Positions 7,318 to 64,000 of a stretch of 64,000 nt of DNA are shown piece by piece. The position numbers and the translations under genes are program-made. Within the stretch, counting starts at the first letter, position 1. Every line of letters starts with the position of its first letter. The DNA lies in contig NZ_BMEM01000001.1 of NCBI RefSeq assembly GCF_014636495.1, positions 604,195 through 668,194 of the forward strand, read 5' to 3'. The stretch comes from Ornithinimicrobium tianjinense. GTDB taxonomy: Bacteria > Actinomycetota > Actinomycetes > Actinomycetales > Dermatophilaceae. The notes under the pieces were generated by a model. The model was given only the letters and a program-made list of their open reading frames with translations. It was not told the DNA's origin and made no database searches.

Positions 7318-7379
7318 CGGCAGGTGGAGGCGCGGTGCGGCAGGTGGAAGGCGCGGTGCGGCAGGGTCGGCGCGCGGTG
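7318..7379. repeat. Three imperfect 20-21 bp tandem repeats
   Basis: Three head-to-tail units of about CGGCAGGTGGAAGGCGCGGTG begin at 7318, 7338 and 7359, the third being diverged. They fill part of the 181-bp stretch between the iclR stop and the operator of the CoA-transferase operon. No gene or clear terminator is seen in the rest of that stretch. Confidence 0.7.
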
Positions 7380-7427
7380 CCGGCGGGAGGGGCGGAGGGC
7401 GTCAGGGCGCCCCGGCGAGCGCGGCGG

Positions 7428-13764: not shown

Positions 13765-13789
13765 GATGGGTGTCAAGCCGGGCGGCAGC

Positions 13790-13803
13790 AACGCCTGTCC
13801 GGT
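13790..13803 (-). repeat. Solitary copy of the ACCGGACAGGCGTT repeat core
   Basis: Plus strand AACGCCTGTCCGGT is an exact match to the core shared by the arrays at 39367-39524 and 63573-63936. It lies in the leader of cstR, between operator 2 and the start codon. Confidence 0.6.
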
Positions 13804-39366: not shown

Positions 39367-39524
39367 GACCGGACAGGCGTTAGTGCCACCCACCGCACCC
39401 GACCGGACAGGCGTTCGTGCCGCCCACCGCTGCCGACCGGACAGGCGTTCGTGCCACCCACCGCACCCGACCGGACGGGCGTTCGTGCCACCCACCGCAC
39501 CCGACCGGACGGGCGTTCGTGCCG
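39367..39524. repeat. Five-unit 34-bp tandem array with core ACCGGACAGGCG
   Basis: Units begin at 39367, 39401, 39435, 39469 and 39503, exactly 34 bp apart; each starts GACCGGACAGGCGTTCGTGC and continues CACCCACCGCACCC. The last two units read GACGGGCG in place of GACAGGCG, and the last is cut short. The array fills most of the 234-bp gap between the ABC ATPase start and the aldehyde dehydrogenase stop. Confidence 0.9.
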
Positions 39525-57480: not shown

Positions 57481-57533
57481 CTCCTGCGGGTATGCCGTGC
57501 GCGCCCCGCGCGCGCACGGCATACCCGCAGGAG
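57481..57533 (+). other. Very strong intercistronic hairpin between atpA and atpG
   Basis: Left arm 57481-57503 and right arm 57511-57533 are perfectly complementary over 23 bp with a 7-nt loop (CCCCGCG). The arms contain GGGTATGCCGTGCGCG and its complement. Because atpG, atpD and no obvious promoter follow, it is more likely an mRNA-processing or attenuating element than a full terminator. Confidence 0.8.
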
Positions 57534-63123: not shown

Positions 63124-63549
63124 GTGCCGGACAGCCTCATCCTGGTGATCCTGGCGGCCTGCGCCGCGCTGGTGATCGTCGGGCTGGGGCTGTTCGCGTT
63201 CCGGACGTTCGGCGAGCAGGGGGCCATCGTGCCCCCGATGCGGGCCGCCTACCGCATGCCCGGCCAGGCCTGGCGCCGCGGCACGCTGCGCTTCACCGGA
63301 GACCGTCTGACCCTCAAGGGGCCGGGCGGTCTTTCCGCGGGGCCCTGGATCCGCGGCAACCTCGACCTCGGCGTCGCCTCTGGGGTGGGCGAGGACGACG
63401 GTCGGGCCATCGGCCGCCAGGGGCTCATCGCCGTGCCGGTGAGCTACGGCACGTCGGCCTTCGAGCTCGCGCTCGACGAGCAGCACTACACCGCGCTGCG
63501 CGCCTGGGTCGAGGCCGTGCCCCCGGGCTGGAACACCTACGTCGCCTGA
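63124..63549 (+). CDS. DUF2550 membrane-anchored protein
   Basis: A 141-aa protein with one N-terminal helix (LILVILAACAALVIVGLGLFAF) and a soluble domain resembling DUF2550: PGQAWRRGTLRFTGDRLTL, SYGTSAFELALDEQHYTALRAWVEAVPPG. The gene follows atpC in most actinobacteria, as here (8-bp gap), and its function is unknown. GTG start. Confidence 0.88.
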   Translation: MPDSLILVILAACAALVIVGLGLFAFRTFGEQGAIVPPMRAAYRMPGQAWRRGTLRFTGDRLTLKGPGGLSAGPWIRGNLDLGVASGVGEDDGRAIGRQGLIAVPVSYGTSAFELALDEQHYTALRAWVEAVPPGWNTYVA

Positions 63550-63572: not shown

Positions 63573-63936
63573 GACCGGACAGGCGTTAGTGCCACCCGCC
63601 ACCGGACAGGCGTTGCGACCGGACAGGCGTTAGTGCCACCCGCGACCGGACAGGCGCTAGTGCCACCCGCGACCGGACAGGCGTTGCGACCGGACAGGCG
63701 TTAGTGCCACCCGCGACCGGACAGGCGTTGCGACCGGACAGGCGTTAGTGCCTGTCCGGTCTGGCAGGAACGCCTGTCCGGTGTGGCAAGAGCGCCTGTC
63801 CGGTGTGGCAAGAGCGCCTGTCCGGTGTGGCAGGAGTGCCTGTCCGGTGTGGCAGGAGTGCCTGTCCGGTGTGGCAGGAACGGCTGTCCGGTGTGGCAGG
63901 AGCGCCTGTCCGGTGTGGCAGGAACGCCTGTCCGGT
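63573..63936. repeat. Head-to-head array of 17 copies of core ACCGGACAGG
   Basis: Direct copies start at 63574, 63601, 63618, 63645, 63672, 63689, 63716 and 63733 (spacing alternates between 27 and 17 bp, with one consecutive pair of 27). At 63751 the orientation flips and nine CCTGTCCGGT copies follow at exactly 22-bp steps (63751, 63773, and so on to 63927; the one at 63883 reads GCTGTCCGGT). The array fills nearly all of the gap between the DUF2550 gene and the convergent gene at the window edge. No ORF or CRISPR-like spacer variety is present. Confidence 0.92.
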
Positions 63937-63938
63937 CC

Positions 63939-64000
63939 TCAGGGCTGTGGGGTCTCGCGCCCGCCGCCGGGCTGCCAGAGGACGTCGCCGCCGGCGGAGA
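63939..64000 (-). CDS. C-terminal end of a gene running off the window (probable PduO-type cobalamin adenosyltransferase)
   Basis: On the minus strand the last 20 codons read GGDVLWQPGGGRETPQP before a TGA. The GDVLWxPG ending is typical of actinobacterial PduO-type cob(I)alamin adenosyltransferases, which lie beside the DUF2550 gene in related genomes. Only the tail is visible, so the assignment is tentative. Confidence 0.55.
   Translation of the reverse strand, partial: SAGGDVLWQPGGGRETPQP

Follow-up and report, generated by a model that had tools for sequence, protein, structure and literature searches.

The window, that is, the whole stretch of 64,000 nucleotides of Ornithinimicrobium tianjinense DNA analysed here, is 92.5% coding according to script gene calls. 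Close to its end, a head-to-head array of short repeats occupies the whole gap between the stop codons of the convergent DUF2550 and cobalamin adenosyltransferase genes (Table 1). Direct reading of the sequence confirmed eight plus-strand units that face nine minus-strand units. The plus-strand cores start at 63574, 63601, 63618, 63645, 63672, 63689, 63716, and 63733, with spacings of 27, 17, 27, 27, 17, 27, and 17 bp in that order, and the minus-strand cores end at 63760, 63782, 63804, 63826, 63848, 63870, 63892, 63914, and 63936. The earlier note had counted these eight direct and nine inverted cores, given the minus-side step as exactly 22 bp, and placed the array between two convergent genes, all of which was borne out; the alternating 27/17 spacing that it described holds nearly, but not strictly. 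The minus-strand core ending at 63892 is a variant, ACCGGACAGC, with a final GC instead of GG. The inversion centre is the perfect palindrome ACCGGACAGGC-N6-GCCTGTCCGGT, and the 17-bp units of this array lack the GCC arm, the full motif being shortened there. The DUF2550 gene was matched in 24 of 28 genomes, including that of O. tianjinense itself.

Table 1. Repeat units of the family and adjoining genes in the window (positions counted from its first base)
Feature	Position	Strand	Remarks
DUF2550 gene	63124..63549	+	PF10739, E 1.4e-12; immediately follows the ATP synthase epsilon gene
Eight units, core ACCGGACAGG, full motif ACCGGACAGGCGTTNNTGCC	63574..63752	+	Sense behind the DUF2550 gene; first unit 24 nt past the stop codon
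28-bp perfect palindrome, inversion point	63733..63760	.	Last plus unit and innermost minus unit have GGC-N6-GCC in common
Nine units, exactly 22 bp apart	63741..63936	-	Sense for the gene ending at 63939
Cobalamin adenosyltransferase gene, 3' end	63939..64000	-	PF01923, E 1.6e-58; remainder outside the window, L141:2634-3266
Second array of the family, five units at 34 bp	39368..39523	+	Two of the five units with one core mismatch
Single motif unit	13784..13803	-	Divergent intergenic space

The second array of the window lies between two minus-strand genes, for an ABC ATPase and an aldehyde dehydrogenase, and is therefore antisense, which makes it an exception to the orientation rule described below. 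A short 21-bp tandem repeat, CGGCAGGTGGAAGGCGCGGTG, is also found at 7318-7380 in an intergenic space flanked by two minus-strand genes; no sequence link to the main family was seen. The earlier note recognised no described family in the head-to-head array, and an Rfam search of it likewise gave no match at the gathering score, its four hits with E of 1 or less all scoring far below it.

The window array is one among dozens of similar arrays in the same genome. The exact 14-mer ACCGGACAGGCGTT occurs 168 times in the 3.31-Mb genome, 93 times in forward and 75 times in reverse orientation, against no copy of the reversed pattern, which excludes chance. The 12-mer ACCGGACAGGCG has 234 copies in this genome and 0-7 in each of 96 relatives. 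The view of the earlier note that the array is more than random satellite DNA appears to hold and is counted here as supported. In 204 units taken from the window and from loci L136-L163 (except L141), the repeating unit is the 20-bp motif ACCGGACAGGCGTTNNTGCC, with a preference for CCnG in front of it; GGC and GCC are conserved within the motif, with six bases between them. The spacers are array-specific in both length and sequence. When adjacent units of equal period were compared, 14 of 342 motif positions differed, against 25 of 225 spacer positions (p 0.002); this comparison took in 19 unit pairs and excluded two free positions, and 12 of the 14 motif differences came from one array.

Family units were found at the very start of contig C1 (L136:72-223) and less than 1 kb from the end of contig C5 (L218:2476-2558), suggesting that the arrays may break assemblies. 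An artefact of short reads is argued against by the assemblies of G010 and G011, which consist of one contig each and hold arrays of related type. A wider contig scan returned at least 103 stretches from many unrelated taxa, with one or two matches each among the matches listed, and the single stretch inspected (L088) was not an array.

Placement relative to genes was determined for 33 loci of the genome plus the window, comprising 72 same-strand blocks and 243 units on six contigs, with some loci on smaller contigs left out; gene calls came from a purpose-written script based on codon usage, not from a standard annotator. The blocks lie after a stop codon in the sense orientation in 54 cases and antisense in 15 (binomial p 1.3e-6), one lies inside a called gene, and two lie at a contig start without a gene on that side. 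Most sense blocks (38 of 54) begin no more than 33 nt past the stop codon, and 10 of them overlap its last base. Such a bias in orientation links the arrays either to transcription or to the ends of genes. Junctions with at least two units comprise 16 convergent, 16 codirectional, and 2 divergent cases, compared with 16, 129, and 29, respectively, among 174 motif-free junctions (Fisher p 8.8e-7), both sets being drawn from the window and from loci fetched for their arrays. Convergent junctions have a median gap of 201 bp when they contain an array and of 40.5 bp when they do not. Eight codirectional junctions hold blocks in both orientations: the sense block adjoins the stop codon in five, lies elsewhere in two (L139 and L156), and is of ambiguous order in one (L148). 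Units also occur in two divergent spaces, L150:2428-2447 and L154:2482-2535, which adjoin a WYL-domain regulator gene and an HrcA-family gene and are exceptions to the gene-end rule. The flanking genes scanned look like ordinary chromosomal ones; the families found include malic enzyme, a fumarase-type lyase, cytochrome c oxidase subunit IV, malate synthase, the Fur family, the exonuclease VII large subunit, and ABC transporters. The blocks are almost all intergenic and enriched at convergent junctions, two points that the earlier note had proposed to test, and the scattering through coding DNA without a spacing rule that it named as telling against its reading was not found.

Spacing between units is variable. 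In a larger unit set from the same genome, 22 bp accounts for 103 of 171 spacings in the 14-50 bp range to which the count was confined; unit spacings span 17-49 bp, and whole arrays also run at 26, 29, 32, 34, 37, 40, or 42 bp. The two opposing halves of head-to-head arrays are often unequal in period, and the window array with its 27/17 and 22 bp is one example of this genome-wide mixture. The constant helical phasing suggested earlier is only a tendency across the genome, with a strong peak at 22 bp and other periods that are not significantly phased. A test of 19 modal periods other than 22 bp, leaving out one block with 21-bp spacing, gave p 0.16-0.24, and strict phasing was rejected on this basis. 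A Rayleigh test of 35 distinct spacings without those of 21-23 bp gave p about 0.003, although spacings within one array are not independent. Variable spacing argues against one fixed polymer on the DNA and for sites that are recognised one by one.

Other species of the genus have related arrays. When pairs of ACCGRGCGY cores at a distance of 31-34 bp were looked for, 16 of 31 same-genus genomes returned 9-327 hits (0-2 in the reversed control), compared with 0-2 (control 0-3) in the 155 genomes that belong to other genera. Within the 186 family genomes searched, the array family is confined to the genus. Its repeated element is a bipartite motif of 20-23 bp, which reads ACCGGACAGGCGTTNNTGCC in O. 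tianjinense and ACCGRGCGY...TGGTTGCC in several relatives; the latter is the form of the 32-bp class, as read from 140 units of four species. The arrays frequently stand head to head where genes converge. Among 100-kb samples of eight species, the units read, for instance, ACCGGACGCGGGTTCCTGACAG at 22 bp in G004, ACAGGACACGCCAGACGGCC at 22 bp in G002, ACCGGGCGTCGTGAATGGTTGCC at 32 bp in G007, and ACCGAGCGCCGCAGATGGTCGCC at 32 bp in G011, while the samples of G014 and G015 showed no array of the family type by eye. Locus L222 of G004, in which a 32-bp-class unit is followed by a ACCGGACGCGG unit resembling the 22-bp arrays of that genome, links the two classes. The sense bias recurs in these relatives, with 11 sense and 3 antisense blocks in G010 (two blocks inside called genes set aside) and 22 and 9 in G012, G028, G004, and G026 combined (nine set aside), which together give p 0.001 for loci mostly picked because they hold the motif.

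The distribution of dialects was compared with a CtaF tree, which is built on a short protein, contains several weak forks, and leaves the position of O. tianjinense unsure; its dialect labels predate the 186-genome scan, which added more array-bearing species. Species with TGGTTG in the units listed (G004, G007, G012, G026, and G028) fall into one supported clade of 12 rows, together with G011, whose units carry both TGGTCG and TGGTTG. A second clade of 7 rows contains G006, G008, G010, G018, and G023, whose inspected units have ACCGAGCGC, mostly without TGGTTG. Different 32-bp intergenic tandem repeats that share GGTTTCGTAGG were seen at L186:16605-16704 in G006 and in the tail of L212:16798-17130 in G015, two more distant species of the genus.

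Orthologous junctions only sometimes carry arrays. By eye, arrays stand behind the DUF2550 gene at 4 of 18 same-genus loci, that of O. tianjinense included, in three dialects; the count excludes L113, which has other short repeats. Behind ctaF, they occur in 3 of 29 genomes. In G016, a 32-bp array of another dialect with the core CCCAAGCGCGTTGCTAGG directly follows the ctaF stop codon (L237). The array behind the malic enzyme gene was not seen by eye in the first 300 nt behind seven orthologues (81-89% identity); other repeats are present at one of them (L259). This gene was dropped as a second orthologous array locus, the G010 gene being 55% identical compared with 81-89% for the closer orthologues.

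Judged from their orientation and placement, the arrays may tentatively be regarded, as the favoured reading, as tandem sites for a putative DNA-binding protein that would close off transcription behind genes. Each unit would be a site for a sequence-specific protein, and a row of bound sites could act as a polar roadblock or insulator that halts transcription into the opposing or the next gene. The putative protein would drift together with its motif. Consistent with such a roadblock are the 168 copies of ACCGGACAGGCGTT against none reversed, the sense bias, the convergent enrichment, the lower variation of the motif than of the spacers, and the dialects across the genus. Counting against it are the 15 of 72 blocks that are antisense, the 2 of 34 array junctions that are divergent, the 2 of 8 codirectional junctions with both orientations whose sense block does not adjoin the stop codon, the mostly array-free orthologous junctions of ctaF and DUF2550, and the hairpin findings given below for ctaF and for convergent junctions. 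A wider form of this proposal appears rather unlikely as a whole: a gene-end system spanning the genus, in which a protein on tandem polar sites behind stop codons would close off transcription between neighbours, above all convergent ones, and co-drift of protein and site would give each species its dialect. If the arrays do act on transcription, they would represent a new bacterial way of separating neighbouring genes.

Nearly as likely as protein sites, and close behind, is a selfish or neutral satellite, whose short units would spread and grow in number through slippage and template switching at any place where they do no harm. In a genome that is about 92% coding, as the window is at 92.5%, harmless sites would lie immediately after stop codons, chiefly where two genes converge, and the dialects would reflect concerted evolution without function. 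The array-specific spacers, the periods that vary between arrays, and the absence of arrays from most orthologous junctions examined, including those of the seven malic enzyme orthologues, are as a satellite would have them. However, the strand bias towards the gene (54 against 15) and the same bipartite layout in related dialects across the genus are not, nor are the stronger conservation of motif than spacer within arrays, seen in a small sample, and the lack of a REP-type transposase.

An element acting in RNA is improbable. Sense units would form hairpins in the 3' untranslated region, and sense and antisense units would pair into a very long duplex, with the effect of terminating transcription or shielding the mRNA. 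The conserved GGC and GCC six bases apart suit such hairpins, and the head-to-head array has a folding energy of -284.6 kcal/mol (z -17), an extreme value of the kind that any inverted repeat must give. The strong mRNA structure suggested earlier is found only where the two halves meet: the plus half with the palindrome reaches z -2.2, and a one-way array z -1.5, little better than shuffled sequences. The 17-bp units without a GCC arm, the often unequal periods of opposing halves, and the 32-bp-class consensus, which lacks GGC-N6-GCC, also speak against it. An intrinsic terminator was rejected, as no terminator-like hairpin with a T tract was found in L141:2000-2900 and the one-way array folds so weakly. 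At the ctaF junction of G000 and G023, the array is positioned by eye behind a terminator-like hairpin and is thus not the sole possible stop there. In their hairpins, convergent junctions with an array did not differ from others (3 of 16 against 4 of 17), under a rule that missed the ctaF hairpin. These two ctaF arrays follow a hairpin and array junctions are not poorer in hairpins; hence, the arrays are not simply replacements for hairpin terminators, an idea that was rejected.

DNA uptake sequences (DUS) are expected as dispersed single copies, also within coding sequence. It is very improbable that the motif is a DUS-like sequence that also serves in terminators, even though it is short, occurs in both orientations and in inverted pairs at gene ends, and has dialects between related species. 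Its copies are mostly clustered as tandem arrays and hardly ever fall in coding DNA (1 of 72 blocks in a called gene), and the dispersed 9-mer GGTATGCCG of the same genomes would be a better candidate. Among window 9-mers with at least 20 copies, GGTATGCCG has the top ratio to its reversed form (28 copies, 19 of them in called coding sequence, against none reversed). It occurs at 9-45 per 100 kb in the eight same-genus samples (reversed 0-1), on both strands and in all codon phases, and an inverted pair lies between atpA and atpG at 57489-57525. This pattern suggests that GGTATGCCG may be a dispersed signal of the DUS or Chi type that has no relation to the arrays.

Less probable still are REP or BIME elements mobilised by a RAYT-type transposase. 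Like them, the present arrays are dispersed, intergenic, partly palindromic, and common near gene ends, particularly convergent ones. The usual REP layout does not consist of long direct tandem arrays, unlike the one found here, and the cognate Y1 transposase (PF01797) was absent from all 28 genomes searched (O. tianjinense and 27 relatives), in a search whose control matched 5 of 14 named genomes; REP/RAYT was rejected for this absence. The term 'iteron-like', if it meant a replication origin, did not survive, and an iteron or plasmid origin was rejected: iterons are confined to an origin next to an initiator gene, while the blocks are spread over six contigs with ordinary genes as neighbours, the window array matched no phage or plasmid sequence, and no replication initiator family was present among 44 proteins scanned. 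Viral carriage was rejected after two motif patterns gave no match in viral contigs.

Behind eukaryotic rRNA genes, terminator proteins bind tandem sites, such as the Sal boxes bound by TTF-I. The present arrays may be compared with these in having a short tandem motif behind a gene with an orientation tied to transcription, an analogy of mechanism that makes no claim of homology. Literature searches, which covered PMC8161180 and PMC6749651 in part and otherwise were not of full texts, gave no recognisable description of the present array family. The satellites of Leptospira interrogans (PMC6749651) are similar as non-coding families at many genomic sites, but their repeats exceed 30 nt, and the word 'orientation' is absent from the main text.

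Short species-specific tandem repeats of bacteria have so far been catalogued without a known function. According to the sections covered of Subirana and Messeguer (PMC8161180), such repeats have a near-constant size of 20-23 nt (52 nt in Firmicutes), those of 20-21 nt also occur in Actinobacteria, and a protein polymerising on DNA or small RNAs are suggested to be involved. The present arrays resemble them in being non-coding tandem arrays across the genome near 20-22 nt, with 22 bp in 103 of 171 spacings and 1 of 72 blocks in a called gene, in having a sequence that differs between species (the 12-mer counts of 234 against 0-7), and in lacking a known function. A repeat size constant within the species was not found here; the constant part is the 20-bp motif, at spacings of 17-49 bp. 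Features of the present arrays that were not found in the sections covered of that paper are placement at stop codons, orientation in gene sense, a head-to-head arrangement, and dialects related to one another across a genus. The arrays combine a conserved bipartite motif and free spacers with a link to stop codons and to the direction of genes, and they occur in related versions in other species of the genus; a repeat class without explanation thereby becomes open to test, the questions being what recognises the motif and whether it acts on transcription behind genes. As far as those sections go, the closest described kind is the 20-23-nt repeats of Subirana and Messeguer (PMC8161180), of which the present arrays are a variant without constant size.
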